Positions 36,635 through 46,596 of a stretch of 64,000 nt of DNA are shown piece after piece. The translations under genes and the position numbers were made by a program. Positions within the stretch are counted from its first letter, which is position 1. Every line of letters begins with the position of its first letter. Source of the DNA: Nitzschia sp. DOCU1. Taxonomy: Eukaryota; Bacillariophyta; Bacillariophyceae; Bacillariales; Bacillariaceae. The notes under the pieces were generated by a model. It had not been told where the DNA came from and did no database searches. It saw nothing but the letters and a program-made list of their open reading frames with translations. The stretch lies in contig OX595986.1 in assembly GCA_951394045.1 (NCBI GenBank), positions 62,001 to 126,000 on the forward strand. Direction: 5' to 3'.

Positions 36635-38386
36635 TTACAAATCGGTTCTTGGCGACGTTTCCTTTTTGCGCATCATGTCTTCCTTATCGAACAGCGGTTC
36701 CGCATTCTTCCGTTTGAATTGATGATGATCACTCTCTAATTGGTCATCAGGTTCGGCTTGTTTGCTTCGTCGTCGAACTTTGGATCGCAACCAATTGGGT
36801 GGATACATATCCTCGGAAACTTCAATCATATGCCGAAAGGCCACGGGCAAGAATGAATCTGACTGATAGGTAGCTTCGACGAATTCAATGCCTTCTCTGG
36901 GAATGTCAGTGTAGATGTATTCAAATCGTCGAAAAATGTGGCAGGTGTATTCAATATTTTCGTTTTCATGATGATGGTCGACCAATTTGGCGGTATAAGT
37001 GATGGTGCTTCCATCGCCACCCTCCCGGGTCTCGCGTTCCAAGATGATACAGGGCAGCAAACAATTATTGTGCTCCGTTTGAGTATCCCACGATTGATAC
37101 TGAATCATGGCATACTCTTCCGCAAATTCATCTTCAATCCAATCTTGTTCAAATCGACACGCCGTCACGAGATTCGGAGGATAGGGCTCTTTATGTTGTT
37201 CGGTAATCGTTTTGAGAATTTCGTCGGCTTGCAGGGCATTGAATTCCGAAGCGGGAACGTAATTGTCGTCCAAACGCGGCCCGAGTAACTGATATCTCGT
37301 AACGTGTTTTTGCCAAGCGTCGACCCAAGAGGGACCATAATCCAAATACAATTCTTCACCCTCTTCTAAATCTCTGAGTGCGACCAAGTCCATGACCAAA
37401 CCTTTTCCATGTGTCGCGGCCACACGTTCGACGCTGTATCGAAACAGTTCAGGATGATGATATTGTTGTCGTCTTGCAAGTCCTTCATTCGAGGGCGCAT
37501 CTTGATGCCACACAACCTTGACGTTAGGAGTGCTGTGATGATTGACCAAATTCATCAGGGGCCCGTAGGGTAGCCAAAGTAAATCCGAATCGGGATGACC
37601 AAAACAATAATTTAACAAGAGCTGTTGTCGTCCGATATTATCCACGGGGGGGATTTCCAAGACACTGCGGTGAACGGGCACGGCCGGTGCCGACAAGACA
37701 ATGGAGCCCTTTTTCAGGGGTTGTCGGGTATAAACCCCTCGTCCCACATGCTCTAGTTCTGACTCGTGGTGCTCTTCTACCTTGTCGTCGACGCAAATCA
37801 TGGTCGAGTCCTGAGGATTAAAGGTTGATTTGATGTGTCGATATTCAGCCGCATCGAAGTCATCGTCGTAACATTCTGCAATCAGCTCTTCGCCTGGCAA
37901 AATATCTCGAACCGCTCGAAACATGGTGGTGGTGTAGTATGAAAAGGATCCTGCCTCGGGGTGTTTCGTGCGATCGATGCCATGACGATTGAATTCCATT
38001 TCGTTAATTTGTTCGACGTTGAAATTGACGCTAGTGCAGGGACAAATGGCCGAGATGCCCGGCGAGTACATGAACATGCCCCCGAGTGCTTCCAGCACAA
38101 GATTCTTATGCGCTTCCCCGCCCCACATGAATTCTCGCAACGGAGGATGAATTCCTTGGTCCTCTTCGTCGGTATTACTTTGCAGATCATAAATGGGAAC
38201 AAAGAGTTCACCAGGCAGATCCTCCCCGGCCTTGATTAGACGCCCCGTGTACATGCCCAGCCCATAACCATGTTCGGCTTCCTTTTTAACATGAGAGGGA
38301 CCCAGCCATAAACCGCAATCGGCAGTAGCACTAGTAGCCAAGACCAGCACTGCTGCTAGTAATGTTGTCGTCATTGCAAACGACAT
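36635..38386 (-). CDS. SET-domain-like protein with N-terminal signal peptide
   Basis: Single exon. The frame is open to 38497, but the first ATG is at 38386 (second at 38374), giving 583 residues. The start MTTTLLAAVLVLATSATA looks like a signal peptide or anchor. Two SET-like segments can be traced: residues about 30-190 (HGYGLGMYTGRLIKAGEDL ... ILPGEELIAECYDDDF) and about 210-370 (HVGRGVYTRQPLKKGSIVL, LLLNYCFGH, LMNLVNHHSTPNVKVVW, DLEEGEELYLDYG). The NHHSTPNV and EELYLDYG strings match the substrate/AdoMet core of SET methyltransferases. The C-terminal quarter is charged, with RRRSK and KRK. Export of a SET protein is unusual; it might act in the ER or a plastid-targeted route. Substrate unknown. 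Its 3' end has been duplicated at 52-55 kb. Confidence 0.78.
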   Translation of the reverse strand: MSFAMTTTLLAAVLVLATSATADCGLWLGPSHVKKEAEHGYGLGMYTGRLIKAGEDLPGELFVPIYDLQSNTDEEDQGIHPPLREFMWGGEAHKNLVLEALGGMFMYSPGISAICPCTSVNFNVEQINEMEFNRHGIDRTKHPEAGSFSYYTTTMFRAVRDILPGEELIAECYDDDFDAAEYRHIKSTFNPQDSTMICVDDKVEEHHESELEHVGRGVYTRQPLKKGSIVLSAPAVPVHRSVLEIPPVDNIGRQQLLLNYCFGHPDSDLLWLPYGPLMNLVNHHSTPNVKVVWHQDAPSNEGLARRQQYHHPELFRYSVERVAATHGKGLVMDLVALRDLEEGEELYLDYGPSWVDAWQKHVTRYQLLGPRLDDNYVPASEFNALQADEILKTITEQHKEPYPPNLVTACRFEQDWIEDEFAEEYAMIQYQSWDTQTEHNNCLLPCIILERETREGGDGSTITYTAKLVDHHHENENIEYTCHIFRRFEYIYTDIPREGIEFVEATYQSDSFLPVAFRHMIEVSEDMYPPNWLRSKVRRRSKQAEPDDQLESDHHQFKRKNAEPLFDKEDMMRKKETSPRTDL

Positions 38387-38907
38387 GGTCTGCTGGAAGT
38401 GGTGGCCGTGCTGTGGTGGTACGTCTACAATCTGCAATAAGAACCACACAACGATGCAACAAGGAACAATGACCGACCGTTTGAAGTCGGGGTGCAACGG
38501 CGTTCTTTATGATAGAGAGAGATAAAGACCGAAAAGCGAGCGCATCGAAAGAGCCAAGGGTCGTACAAATAGAGTATCGGTATCTTAGTGGGGTTAACTT
38601 TAGGCACGTGGAGTATGGGAGGTTTCGCGGGATTTCGGCGATGATTGACTCCTTGGACCACTCTTTAACATCGAAGGTAGGAAGGTACTGCTGTGATCAT
38701 TGTAGGTAGTAATAAGGGATAGTACCAGCACTGACTGTGTGTGGCCTCGAGGGAAGTAGTTGAGGCTTTCATCTACTACTAGGAAAGTAGTAGTAGCAGC
38801 TCCTGCTGTACTCCGGAGTAGTAGTATCAAGATGACAAACTATCAATTCTGCTGAGTACTAATAGTAGCAGCGATAATTTTGGATTACGAAGTATGGATG
38901 AAGACAA
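38387..38907. other. intergenic, no gene seen
   Basis: 521 bp between two minus-strand genes. It contains TAGTAGTAGCAG/CTACTACTAGG low-complexity sequence at about 38765-38875. No coding potential is visible beyond the upstream extension of the SET frame, which lacks an ATG. Confidence 0.5.
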
Positions 38908-41900
38908 TCAATCTTCTTTCTTGTCGCTTTCGGTTTCGCCCTCGATCATCAATGCATCCAAGGCGGCGGATGCCGCGGTGGCAACCTTTGCGCGTTCTGA
39001 TCCCATGGGCGACATGGTGCTGTAGCTAGCATTCAAAGACCTAAGACTAGACTGCAAGTTGCCCGACATATCCATCGCTCGCGCAGAGTAGTCTTTGCGG
39101 AGCATCCTCAGCCGTTCCTTCTGCTTGACGTTCCAACGGTCCCTGATCAAGTTGGCGGCATTGATGAAGCGGGCACGCGTCTTAAGCAACTGCATCTGTT
39201 CACGGACGGCGTCTCCTGATACAGGACTGGCGGTAGTAGCAATGCGCATGATACTGTGTGTGCGTTCCATTTTGTAGCCCATCAGACCTAGAGAGTACTT
39301 GGGAAAGAAGTCTTGAACACGCTTGCCCCTGATCATGCGAGAGAGCGAAGAGATTAGGCGACGCAAAACCCCAAAGTGACATATGCCAGGGGCTACGACG
39401 ACTTACATTTGATGGAACATAACACACATGGCCGTAAAACGTTGAAGCGATGCGATGCGCGACTCGTAGAGCTCCATGCTGAAATGCTGGCACTGTGCTT
39501 GTGCAAACGAGTTGATTCCAGGTGGAGCGGTAGCATACAACTCGGCGCCAAAGTATTCTTCCGTGCTGGGCTTGACTTCGAGCAGTCCCTGCTCATTGTG
39601 TTGAGTCGCATGGCGCAGACGACGAATCATATCGGAGCCTCGAAGGAGCATGATTCGTTCGAATTCCTTAAAGTCCAACTCTCCTGAGCCATCGACGTCG
39701 GCCTCCCTAAAGATGAGTTCAATGTCCGAGCGAGAAAGACCCTCGTGAACTCGATTATAAGCGACAACAAACTCTTCCAAGTCGATCGATCCGGATCCAT
39801 CCTTGTCGATCTCGGCAAAGATTTGATGAACCTGCGAAGACTTCTGTTTCTCTGCAATCATTGCCGCAAGAATAGCTTCTTCCGCAGAGGTTTCGTCGAA
39901 CTCTTCCTGGAAAAGGTCAAGCTCCATGGAAACATTCCGCTCAGACAAGGGCCCATTTTCCTCTGTCCCACTGCGACTGCCGTTGTCCGACATGGCCCTC
40001 TTGCTAACCGTTTGACGTTTCGACTGTTGCATTGACTGCTCTCTCATTCCAAGGTAAGCTCCTTTGAGACTGTGCGAGCTGCGGTCAAGCTTGGAGGACC
40101 CATCGTCGTCGCCACCAAACCAGGCAGAAAAACCCAGCCACTGGTTAATCGTGAACATCCAACGCCTCCAGATGGTCCATTCTTCCCATGTTTCCAAGGG
40201 ATTCAACTTAGAAGCGAGGGCCTTCTGCTTACGAAGATGCTCGTCGTCCATGATATCCAAAATTTGCTCGCAAAGGAACTTGGGTCGATAAGTGCTCAGC
40301 GCTATATCCATTTTAGTAAGACCGAGCTAAAAAAGAAAAGGGAGAAGTATAAGAAGATGTATGAACAATGAACGAAGAATTCGTCGCTAACGTGAACATA
40401 CCTTTGACGGGTTGTGGCCAATGGTGATCGACTCGCATGTTCCTCCCATACTCTGGATGCTGCTGGCCTGGTTCACGCTCAAGTTGACGGCGCATTCAGC
40501 GCTCGTCAAGGCCGTTAGACGCCCGTCGGGCCGTCCACAGACCAACAAACTACCACGCACGACGCGATGGGTGTGGCTTTGCGACGGAAAGTGAGTCAAC
40601 AAGTTATTCGATGGTCGTTCAGTCAGAAGGGCGACTTGATTCTTACCGATGGACCAAGTGATCGGCCGGATTTCCCGAAAGCACATTGAGACCGGCAATC
40701 GAGTAGGACCGAGCAAAAATCTTGGACAAGAAAGCTTCAATACTCTGTGCAACCCAAGGAATATCTCCCACAACAACAGTTCGCCCAGTCATTCTGTGTC
40801 TCAAATTTCGATTTTGAATTAGTCGGATGATGATAATGTTGATTTGCGGCAAAAAGAAGTAAATCAGGGCATCAAGGAACCGAGTGATATAGAAACCCCA
40901 GTGGCCATCAGCAAGGCCACAGGCGATTGCAATACCCGTCACAGCAGGATATCCCGACGTGACGGTACCGACAACATAAATGAAACTCATGATGTAGGCG
41001 CGAACATTTTCCAAGACATGGTCAGCCCAAAGGGATCCGGCTTCTTTCAGCTGTCGGGTGGCCTCGGTCTGGTGCTCTTTTCCGGAAACGTCTTTTCCAA
41101 CGATTCGTTCCAAAGCCAAGATGTTATCCTGGTTACATCGTTCCAAAACTCGGAGGTCGGGCTCGGTAACGACGGCGCCAGTCAAATCCCGAAAGACTTG
41201 CTTGCTGAGAATAACGAGGCAAATGTACTCGTAGATTTGAGTCAAGAGTTGGTGCGTGGCCGCTACACTCAACGAGCAAGGTTCAGCTGGACGAACGCCA
41301 ATGTCGGTAGTGAAGACGCGGCTTCCAAAAATATCCTTGTCGTCTTGGAACATCGCACGGAGTTGTTTGCCAATTTGGGAGTCCCATTCACTTGACACCA
41401 CAAAAATGTTTCGAGTCACACTCTGCAAAAGATTGGAAATGGCCAGCGGAGCAAAGGTTCCTCCACTGTGGCTTACAATGATGACAATCGTATGCTTCAA
41501 GTCCGGATTGTGATCCGACAGGGGGAATCCAATGCTGGGGACGCTCAACTTGAAACGGGAACGAGGAATACGGGTGAGCGTACCGAGCACTATCTTGCGG
41601 CTGTCTGCATTTCACCGGTACTTCTGCCAGCGCACTTACTTCTTGTCCCAACAATCCCAAGAGCTTATTCGAACTGATGGCTTGGATTGCCATCTTTGGG
41701 AAACTCTTGGAGAGATCCGACGCCAATTGCTCTGCCAACCACAACGAAACTTCGCACCCCGTCAACAAGATATCCACACCACCCTTTGATAATCCTGCCG
41801 CTTGTGCCGTCAATCGCTCCCGAAGTTTGCGACCCAAATTCCACGCGGTGAGTCGATTGAGACCTCCTTCCTTCCAATTCTCTTGGATACGATAGAGCGC

Positions 41901-44094
41901 TCGTGGAATCGAGCCTATGTCTTCGGCAATGGGGTCTACATAATCGGGCGTAAGCGGCAAAAGAAATTCATTGCCACGCAAGGGCGTAACACGGGATCGT
42001 AATGTTTGGGCGGATGATCGCGTTTCCTGATGGTTTTGAATTTCGACTTCGCCCGAGGTCCAATCCATTAAAACAACTTCGCCACCCAAATCATCCAAGT
42101 CAAAGCGGCATGTCTCTTGTGTCAGGATTTGGCTTAAATGGGAACTACCGTGCTTGCTGTGAATCGGAAAGCTCCCACCAGGACGATCGAATTGCAAGCC
42201 GGCCTTGACGGCGGCAAGTTCAGATCCATAGCAAACAATTCCTTTGGAAGGACTGTAGTGAACAAAGCGACAAGACATTTGTTAGTCCAATCGGTATTCC
42301 CCCTTTTTCTCTCGGGGGGCCTCCACAAGAAGCTTTACTTACTAGAAAGCAATCGACATGGGTTGTCCTCGTGCCGCAATACAAATTTGTCGATGGGCAT
42401 CCAAACTCGACGTGACCATGAGTCCAAACGATCCGACGGCACTCTTCATAAAGAGCCGTGTCGTCATAAACAAGTCATTGTCAAAAAAGGCGTCAATCGA
42501 TTTCTCTACCAATTTCTCCAGTGTTGGTCGAGTTCGCTGTTTCTTCTTATTCAAAGCTTGCTCCACGTCTTCATCGCCCAGTTGTTTCATGGTATCATCT
42601 ACGCCAGCTTCGGGTTCGGCATATTCATAGAAAGACGATAGCTCAATCTTGTACTGGGTTTTGATCTTGGCCACCACTCGACTCGCAAATTCTTCTCGTA
42701 AGTCACGACTCTTGGAGATTTTCTTTAGATTCATTTCGGGTTTTGCCTTGCAAAACTCCAACAATGTCGATTCGAAAAATTTGGACAATCGATCATAATC
42801 CATATAGCTTGGGCATGCTTGTGATAGACTTATTCGTGAATGGGGCATGGCCAGCAAGTGGGCATATCGAATACTGAGCGCAAAACATCCGGCACTACGA
42901 ATAATATCGATTACCCCCGCAATGGCAGCTGAATCAACTGGAGCTGGGATGGGAAATCCAGTCGCTTCGACGAGCCATTCTTGAATATCTTGAAGTGGGG
43001 CATGAAGTCCGTTGACTTTATAAAAGTCGAAATCTCCATTATGAGTGACAAAGTTGGATACTTTCATAGCAATCGGATACGGAGTCTTGGAAGCCCAAAT
43101 TCTAGCATTGTCCAAGGGATAGACTCGTCGAAATTGGGGTGGGCACCAGGCATGAGGATGGGTTCCGTCCAATGTCGCTTTGCTGGACGTAGCAAATCTA
43201 GTATGCCCCAATAGCAATCGTACCGTCCTATCCATGGGCCCAACGCCACCGAACCATCCAGAACTACAAATTCTAGCATTCAACGCCTTCCGCATCATTT
43301 CGCTGAGATCCGTGCGCTTGCTATTGACGACGCGCACTCTGACAGGGGTAGGGGCTTGTCCTTCACGATGCGTCCAAGTTACAACACCCCCCGTTTGGGC
43401 TAGTTGTAGTTAATATAAGTAGACCAATAAGTCAGTGCTCGATTTCCAAAGAAGAAAGCCGACAATACCGTCGTTGCTTACCTCCTCTCATCATTGTAAT
43501 TTGAATCATTTTCTCCAACAAATCTAGAACCGTCTTCCCATTATCGCCTGGCGTCTTGACCCAAGCATCATGTAGCATAATGACTCCAAAGTTTCCACAA
43601 GCAAACATGGTTCTTGAGTGTGAAAAGCCTGACGACAGGCCCAACAAGTCCGTCGATAAAGCTTCTACCAAGGTGACCAAAGCGGCTGTCTGCAGATATT
43701 TGCTCCCGCCGTTGGTGCAATCATAGTACTTGTTCCAACTCCAAATGAGCAGCCACAACAAGAGACTGACGATCCAACCTGCATGTCGCACCATGTCAAC
43801 TTCGAATTCCGAGGCCGCCTCGAGCGAAGGAAGAATAACGGTTCGTCCCAAAAGGGCTCCGAAGCAATCCAAAACTCCGACTTGTTCGGCATCCGAATAT
43901 CCGAGAACTCGCGCAGTCGCGATATGAGAGACTTCATGCAATGCCCCCAAGATGAGATAGGAACTCACAAGCCAAACAAACTTGTTATTGCTCATGGCCG
44001 AATCAGCTGACGGCGACAGCGACGACGATCGCTTGGGCGTCGTCGTCGCCGTCGCCATCGTTCCCTTCATGCTGGTCGCTTCCTTTGCCACCAT
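38908..44094 (-). CDS. membrane fusion: HExxH segment + class II glutamine amidotransferase + SIS + two EF-hands
   Basis: Seven exons on the minus strand: 44094..43482, 43399..42343, 42252..41640, 41548..40647, 40576..40402, 40326..39407, 39328..38908. They total 4701 bp, or 1566 residues, with every junction in frame; introns are 82, 90, 91, 70, 75 and 78 bp. The N-terminus has hydrophobic helices around HEVSH (residues 53-57), M50-peptidase-like. The amidotransferase begins at the CGNFGV cysteine (C166) and has GHTRFATSS (R272) and VTHNGDF (N325), matching GlmS-type glutaminase sites. SIS-like parts follow: LLTGCEVSLWLAEQ near 730 and VSHSGGT near 786-792. Two membrane segments lie at about 946-966 and 986-1003. 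Two EF-hands lie at 1294-1305 (DKDGSGSIDLEE) and 1330-1341. GlmS makes glucosamine-6-phosphate from fructose-6-phosphate and glutamine; a related calcium-linked membrane activity is inferred. The exon 4 acceptor could instead be at 41593. Confidence 0.82.
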
Positions 44095-45018: not shown

Positions 45019-46596
45019 CTAGAATTCTGGCGCTTTGGAGTGATGGGGCGCCAGCTCGTCATCACCAGCAGTCGTCGAAGTAGGAGTAAGATGATGATGA
45101 GTCGAAGTAGTAGAGTCAAGTGGTACCTTCTTCATGGCTTCCAATGTAAACGAGAGTCGTCCATAGGATGCTTCGTCTCGCGACAGCTTGTTCAATTCAA
45201 AGCGCATGCTATTCTTGACCAATGGATACAAATCTTTCCATCCATTCAAGGTGACTTCTTCCAACAAGACACACAACTTGGAGGCGCGTTCTTCATGAAG
45301 TTCCCATGCAGCATTCAACTTTTGATCGTTTCGTGTAACTTTTTCCGAAAAGCCATGATGAATTTCCTTGCCCTTTTCTTCCATAGTATTGAGACGTTTC
45401 CTCAAGCCGGATACCTTGCGTTCATAATGAAGTCGACGTTGTTGTAACAGGCTGACTTGTTTGAGTTCTTCATCCAAGCGTTTTGTGATAATCGTTTCCC
45501 ATTCGGTAGCATAGTCCAAAATGTACTTGTCGTATTCTTGAGCACTAATTTGTTCGTGTACACGAGCCAATTGTTGGACGGCTGCCAAGGAGAGAGTACC
45601 CATGTGTTGCGCAATTTCTTGGGCCTTTTCGGCTGGAAGTTCCATCTCCTCGCTCTTGTGGTGGGTCTCTTTGACGACGACTGTGCCTTGTGTTTTGTGA
45701 ATTCCGTGTAATTGTTCTTCATTCAAGGGTTTTCCAACATGATCCAGCAGAGGATTATCTTTTGACATGTTGGCGTATTCTTGAAAGAGCTGGAAATCGA
45801 ACAAAGTAGTAATGTTAGCAATGAATACGAATCGAGTGCGGCGCATATCCAATTATCGCGTTCTTACCTGCGTTCGAGCGGATTGCATCTTTTCCGTCGT
45901 TTGTTTGTAAGCCTTAATGGCGGCAATCAACGTTCGTAATTGCTTTCGAAAGTCTTGATACTTTTTGGTCAAGGGTACTAGCTCAGGACTGCGTCTCTGA
46001 GAACTAAAGGACTCGCACTTGGCAATTTCTTGCGTGAGTCGAGTGTCAATCGTAGTCTTGTAGTTGGTATTCGCAGCAGTAGGATACGATGCTAGTTTTC
46101 CTCCTGGACTGTGCACGGGAGACGATGGCGACGAAGATGCGGGTGACACGCTCGAGAGAATGTCTGCAGGAGCAGCCTCGTCTTCTTCTTCTTCTTCTTT
46201 TGTGTGTGTAGCAGCAGATGGGGTCGTGACGGGTTGAGGTTCTTGTTCGTCCTGTTCCGCAGGATAAGGACCCATCAGCAGATCAATCTCATCTTCAGGG
46301 TTTGTTGCAACAACCGGCGGTGCACTCGACGAGGGCTCGTCTTCTGGTTTGTCTTCTTCGGGTGGGGGTGGGGGCAGTATGTCATCATCATAAAAGTCGG
46401 AGGTGGGTGGAGGAGGTAGAATTTCACTCGAGCTATCACTATCAAAACTCATCTGCTGGCCGGGCGTCAATTCATTCTCCATCATATCGTCGCCGGGTTC
46501 TTTTTCGTGTTGCTTTTCTTCTACCAGCGGCGGCGCCTGTTCCGGGGGTACCTCGTTTTGTCGCTTTACTTCTTCAGGATGGCATCCAGTGTCCAT
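45019..46596 (-). CDS. BAR/sorting-nexin-like coiled-coil protein
   Basis: Two exons, 46596..45868 and 45789..45019 (78-bp intron, phase 0), give 499 residues from ATG 46596. The first 170 residues are acidic and disordered with proline runs (EILPPPP, DILPPPPPEE) and a Glu run. After that, a long helical region (about 195-455; KKYQDFRKQLRTLIAAIKAY, MQSARTQ joined to LFQEYANMSKD, then a central coiled coil) has the spacing of a BAR domain. A His/Thr-rich tail ends the protein. BAR proteins bind and bend membranes, often in endocytosis. Family placement is by helix pattern, not by a diagnostic motif. Confidence 0.68.

Follow-up and report, generated by a model that had tools for sequence, protein, structure and literature searches.

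On the reverse strand of a 64,000-nucleotide stretch of contig OX595986.1 from the diatom Nitzschia sp. DOCU1 (the whole stretch is called the window here) lies a gene for a 1566-residue protein, in which a membrane domain resembling the site-2 proteases (S2P, family M50B) is fused directly ahead of a glutaminase of the N-terminal nucleophile (Ntn) class, whose predicted nucleophile, Cys166, is internal to the chain. We propose, with a probability of roughly 0.45, that this is a membrane-bound, GlmS-like amidotransferase that matures itself, its N-terminal domain cutting in cis before Cys166. After insertion and folding, the protease-like domain would hydrolyze the peptide bond on the N-terminal side of Cys166, acting on its own chain or on that of another copy. 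This would give Cys166 a free alpha-amino group and switch the glutaminase on. In the SIS lobes, which a hairpin between them would keep at the membrane, ammonia from glutamine would then be transferred to a phosphorylated substrate that resembles a sugar, and EF-hands in the eukaryotic proteins would make maturation or activity calcium-dependent. The fusion is read from sequence and model; the cut, its cis nature, and the calcium control are what we infer.

Class II amidotransferases use an N-terminal Cys, and the free alpha-amino group is part of the active site in GFAT-1 (PMC7000685). Ntn enzymes are described as being synthesized as precursors (PMC9140057). Because the catalytic Cys is internal here, a processing cut should be needed. 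In PurF-type enzymes (MEROPS C44), the few residues ahead of the Cys are reported to be removed autocatalytically (PMC9140057); here, ~165 residues with a protease-like fold precede it. Cuts by S2P directly before a Cys have been reported in RseA, at Ala108-Cys109 (PMC4597795), and in SREBP, at a Leu-Cys bond (PMC3639327). Cys166 stands directly behind a protease-like domain, and a built-in maturation protease would be the simplest reading. If true, this would be a route to Ntn maturation other than the enzyme's own autocatalysis, in a family spanning cyanobacteria and algae. It would also be a new use of S2P chemistry, where one protein, a metabolic enzyme, is its own substrate. Diatoms and cyanobacteria perform much of planetary photosynthesis.

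The first search collected relatives at E<=1e-3 and scored only the 7993 candidates that shared most words. The window protein has 252 relatives at this threshold, of which the best 120 were listed and used; a shorter protein encoded without introns, P0125, gave 295 matches (P0125 included), of which the best 120 were listed and used. The rows are called "eukaryotic-type" and "cyanobacterial-type" here, most of them bearing no taxon name. Conservation counts omit P0128 and sequences shorter than 1000 amino acids (4 of 244 besides P0128), and a row with a gap at a position is not counted there.

The HExxH motif of the N-terminal domain sits inside a membrane helix (residues 35-63), and Asp149 sits in the third core helix (129-150). 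Among the 96 eukaryotic-type rows with letters at all five positions, 92 keep H53, E54, H57, D149, and C166 together; the four exceptions (P0023, P0054, P0098, P0120) have N-termini unlike those of other rows, perhaps from wrong starts. Asp is found at 149 in 104/104 eukaryotic-type and 113/114 cyanobacterial-type rows. The structure alignment with 8vjm ends with model residue 150 on residue 138 of SpoIVFB, an enzyme in which D137 is given as a zinc ligand (PMC9042235). Sequence and model thus support the view that this three-helix domain (H53, E54, H57, D149) is an M50B/S2P-like metalloprotease. A preliminary description of the gene had seen the membrane helices, and rightly placed the protein in the membrane, while missing their resemblance to a zinc metalloprotease.

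The domain is named "S2P-like" rather than S2P because the LDG motif that surrounds the Asp in S2P is not present; the window protein has TDLLG there, and its relatives mostly have [ST]D[LVI]. Unlike SpoIVFB, mjS2P, and RseP, it is also short, it is fused to its likely substrate, and its cyanobacterial-type versions have Gly in place of Glu. Pfam scans found no M50 profile match over the curated cut-off in the window protein and no M50 in 12 N-terminal domains; one of 17 distinct members scanned, P0128, passes the M50B cut-off (28.3 versus 26 bits). One profile search of the PDB returned PsaK at E 0.7 as its sole match. Another returned 738 sequences, the best 60 being EF-hand proteins by name (calmodulin and others) except for one CCDC81B. 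The lists of predicted-fold matches carry nothing on the N-terminal domain.

Cys is found at position 166 in every row with a letter there, 105 of 105 eukaryotic-type and 117 of 117 cyanobacterial-type. In the predicted fold of the relative P0083, the equivalent residue, Cys130, is the first to be aligned, lying on Cys1/Cys2 of GlmS/GFAT; an Ntn glutaminase fold is predicted to start at a Cys. The window protein has HTRFAT at 270 and THNGD at 323, and C166, R203, T271, R272, N325, G326, and D360 are kept in all eukaryotic-type rows with a letter (116/116 for R272, 120/120 for both N325 and G326, 122/122 for D360). Neither Pfam nor NCBIfam reports a GATase or SIS domain over cut-off in the window protein, and both assignments come from the P0083 predicted fold and the conserved motifs. 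These nevertheless uphold the class II amidotransferase of the preliminary description, with the difference that its nucleophile is encoded at 166 and not at the N-terminus. The likeness to GlmS in particular relies on the fold search, because hhalign aligned GlmS in short pieces only; identity to GlmS/GFAT in the predicted-fold alignment of P0083 is 14-15%.

Two ordinary GlmS-like genes, L001 and L003, lie in the same genome (C1, near 1.252 and 1.260 Mb), ~8 kb apart and in opposite orientation. The open frame extends upstream of the catalytic Cys in both, their start codons not being fixed, and these proteins may also need a cut to work.

Two SIS lobes follow the glutaminase in the P0083 predicted fold. 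Hydropathy places a membrane hairpin between them, and the P0083 model has corresponding helices at 852-869/871-889 and 908-934, as the preliminary description had suggested in placing extra helices within an SIS half. The two Ser of the phosphate loop are each kept in 121/121 eukaryotic-type rows with a letter, and the Thr in 119/121. The isomerase residues of GFAT are given as Lys558 and Glu561 in human numbering (PMC7000685). The corresponding motif reads SKIFA in the window protein and SKIFAC in the A1 consensus, so that Lys is kept and the +3 residue is Ala, judged from motifs only and in a region of low pLDDT (the model's predicted local confidence). Thus, the essential Glu of GlmS appears to have been replaced. 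The amido-sugar synthase that had been suggested for this gene keeps its phosphate loop, and seems, on this motif reading, to lack that Glu. A nearly invariant Glu, in GCEVS, stands where GlmS has Thr or Ser. Compared with GlmS/GFAT, this family is further set apart by its internal Cys and N-terminal metalloprotease-like membrane domain, a large helical insert in the glutaminase, the hairpin between SIS lobes, the EF-hands, and a further C-terminal domain.

The two canonical EF-hands are confirmed by Pfam (PF13499, E 4.3e-14, 53.1 bits against a cut-off of 30, residues 1300-1361 of a 1581-residue model of the gene). They are real without defining the family: EF-hand entries occur in 94 of the 120 listed relatives of the window protein, several others being cut short, and in 0/120 listed relatives of P0125. 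A strict loop pattern finds fewer than the Pfam entries suggest, 62 of the 95 eukaryotic-type rows longer than 1350 residues, and 0/117 cyanobacterial-type rows. Because EF-hands are present in one line and absent from the rows of the other, either the eukaryotic line would have gained them or the cyanobacterial-type line would have lost them. The C-terminal domain beyond them (SMELYESRIASLQRF...IATTASPVSG, residues 1360-1475) showed no match when the window protein was scanned against Pfam; judged by eye, P0124-P0126 end in a similar way.

What had been taken for a one-off fusion is instead a family found widely among algae, with relatives in cyanobacteria; its hundreds of members have ~1200-1600 residues and are mostly called "hypothetical protein" where they are named. 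No paper describing such a fusion was found in the open-licence PMC literature, and "undescribed" stands to that extent; UniRef does name some members "Glutamine amidotransferase type-2 domain-containing protein." Among the matches listed, the best-scoring named relatives are Bacillariaceae, and the named diatoms include Thalassiosira, Seminavis, Cylindrotheca, Entomoneis, Epithemia, and Fragilaria. A pelagophyte, the dinoflagellate Effrenium, and the green alga Pycnococcus are also named there. The eight named rows among the best 120 of the 295 matches to P0125 are all cyanobacterial (P0133, P0146, P0157, P0161, P0166, P0181, P0199, P0242). No relatives were found in viral contigs or plasmids. 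A tree of 90 rows, made by a quick method with long branches and a midpoint root, puts the 45 eukaryotic-type rows on one side of a branch with support 99, a deep relative (L013) next, and the cyanobacterial-type rows apart.

Several observations weigh against self-maturation. The Glu position of HExxH is Gly in 112/112 cyanobacterial-type rows, and hhalign found no profile match between their domain and M50B. Fourteen of 117 cyanobacterial-type rows have a degenerate glutaminase (R272G, N325D/E/S, D360A/P) and keep both His, the Asp, the Cys, and a Glu described below (P0170-P0174, P0176, P0177, P0181, P0185, P0186, P0189, P0192, P0196, P0197); the 11 of these placed in the tree form one clade with support 100. 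Because the metal triad outlives the glutaminase there, the M50B-like domain would have a value beyond glutaminase maturation. The distance from Asp to Cys is also loose in eukaryotic-type rows (12-48 residues, median 21; 17 in the window protein).

The cyanobacterial-type rows have, in LEHRS-like motifs, an invariant Glu (112/112 with a letter), which in P0125 lies 24 residues beyond the Gly. MAFFT sets it opposite a hydrophobic eukaryotic position, two residues before a shared R84; hhalign places the loop otherwise. This Glu could be a catalytic base that was relocated in cyanobacteria, the alignment being uncertain. Alternatively, the cyanobacterial-type domain may no longer be a protease. 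The full compound claim, that a built-in intramembrane metalloprotease cuts its own chain before the Cys, under calcium control in algae and with its Glu moved from HExxH to another loop in cyanobacteria, is doubtful.

An unlikely but serious alternative is that the M50B-like domain serves solely to anchor the protein in the membrane, its metal site being structural or regulatory, and that another protease, such as a signal or organelle peptidase, frees Cys166. A mere anchor would have no need of E54, kept in those 92 of 96 eukaryotic-type rows, nor does it sit well with an Asp-to-Cys spacing that is 14 residues in all but one of 113 cyanobacterial-type rows. It does fit the Gly and the missing M50B match in cyanobacterial-type members, the triad of the 14 degenerate rows, and the frames that extend ahead of the Cys in the ordinary GlmS-like genes.

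Cleavage of another membrane protein in trans by the protease domain, with the amidotransferase as its regulated partner or sensor, is decidedly unlikely. Proteases of the S2P family are known to cut other proteins, for example anti-sigma factors (PMC10202637), and the metal triad outlasts the glutaminase in one clade; however, glutaminase residues are otherwise nearly invariant, and the nucleophile is immediately behind the protease-like domain. Hard to credit as well is a glutaminase that is never processed, the protein being a catalytically inactive pseudo-GlmS that works as a sensor of sugar phosphate, glutamine, or calcium. The apparent loss of the isomerase Glu (a motif reading), the clade without glutaminase residues, and the Tyr at position 271 in 117/117 cyanobacterial-type rows (HYRF versus HTRF) suggest it, against which every eukaryotic-type row with a letter keeps the glutaminase residues from C166 to D360 named above. 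Finally, the ordinary calcium-regulated, membrane-tethered glucosamine-phosphate synthase of the preliminary description, with no protease, has a predicted GlmS fold and EF-hands in its favor, but is very improbable, as it leaves the HExxH, the Asp, and the internal Cys unexplained in a genome that has ordinary GlmS-like genes, and as EF-hand entries are absent from the listed cyanobacterial-type relatives.

Spliced translation reproduced exactly the seven-exon gene described earlier, with 4701 bp of coding sequence, no internal stops, and six GT-AG introns of 70-91 nt. The 1581-residue model, which uses a nearer acceptor for intron 3, adds 15 residues not found in relatives. The 1566-residue model is favored because P0002, P0032, P0061, and P0083 read continuously, as GQ(E/D)L(S/A)(V/I)PxxGF, through this junction; the remaining junctions lie, by eye, within segments uninterrupted in the same four. 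A relative from the MMETSP transcriptomes (P0034, "type:complete," 1520 residues) has the same domain order in one open reading frame, with EF-hand Pfam entries as well as HExxH (residue 17) and CGNFG (residue 165). A second copy with this order lies in the same genome (C9:708868-712399; assembly of 52 Mb in 63 contigs). Separate genes are ruled out by such one-frame transcriptome relatives and the second copy, and the single fused gene first described stands. Chance occurrence of the motifs is ruled out by their conservation. Table 1 collects the coordinates.

Table 1. Features of the gene in window coordinates
Feature	Position	Strand	Basis
Whole gene, 7 exons, 1566 aa	38908..44094	-	spliced translation, relatives
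Exons	44094-43482, 43399-42343, 42252-41640, 41548-40647, 40576-40402, 40326-39407, 39328-38908	-	
M50B/S2P-like membrane domain, residues 35-152, three long helices	43639..43992	-	
HEVSH, residues 53-57, HExxH zinc motif	43924..43938	-	H-E-H-D-C conservation
Asp149, presumed third zinc ligand	43648..43650	-	conservation, SpoIVFB alignment
Proposed scissile bond Ala165-Cys166 and Ntn nucleophile Cys166	43597..43602	-	conservation, P0083 fold
Class II glutamine amidotransferase (Ntn) domain, residues ~166-607	42102..43599	-	
Linker and first SIS lobe, residues 612-890	41162..42089	-	predicted fold
Phosphate loop SHSGGT, residues 787-792	41473-41456	-	S-x-S-G-x-T conservation
Membrane hairpin between SIS lobes, residues 930-1012	40796..41044	-	hydropathy, P0083 model helices
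Second SIS lobe, residues 1013-1125	40312..40795	-	GFAT alignment to model residue 1061-1062; partly low pLDDT
Two canonical EF-hands, loops DKDGSGSIDLEE (1294-1305) and DVDGSGELDFKE (1330-1341), 1566-aa numbering	39652..39819	-	Pfam
Conserved C-terminal domain, residues 1360-1475, SMELYESRIASLQRF...RTHSIMRIATTASPVSG	39184..39609	-	A1 alignment consensus

A motif-pattern scan of genome contigs, with a pattern that has HTRF where cyanobacterial-type members have HYRF, returned L013 only. This deep relative has HETCH and CGNFG, and no EF-hand was seen in it by eye. As a query it gave eight matches, including the dinoflagellate Durusdinium and shorter intron-less proteins. It is filed in a metagenome-assembled genome of Verrucomicrobiaceae, beside a broken frame recognized by eye as glutamine-synthetase-like; given the broken frames, the contig probably comes from a protist and was misassigned to a bacterial bin.

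Two open reading frames adjoin the gene in the window, both on the reverse strand. The one at 45019-45852 has a sorting-nexin WASP-binding BAR match below threshold (E 0.0042, 17 versus 24.9 bits). The other, at 36635-38506, encodes 623 residues with a SET domain (PF00856, E 3.5e-11).

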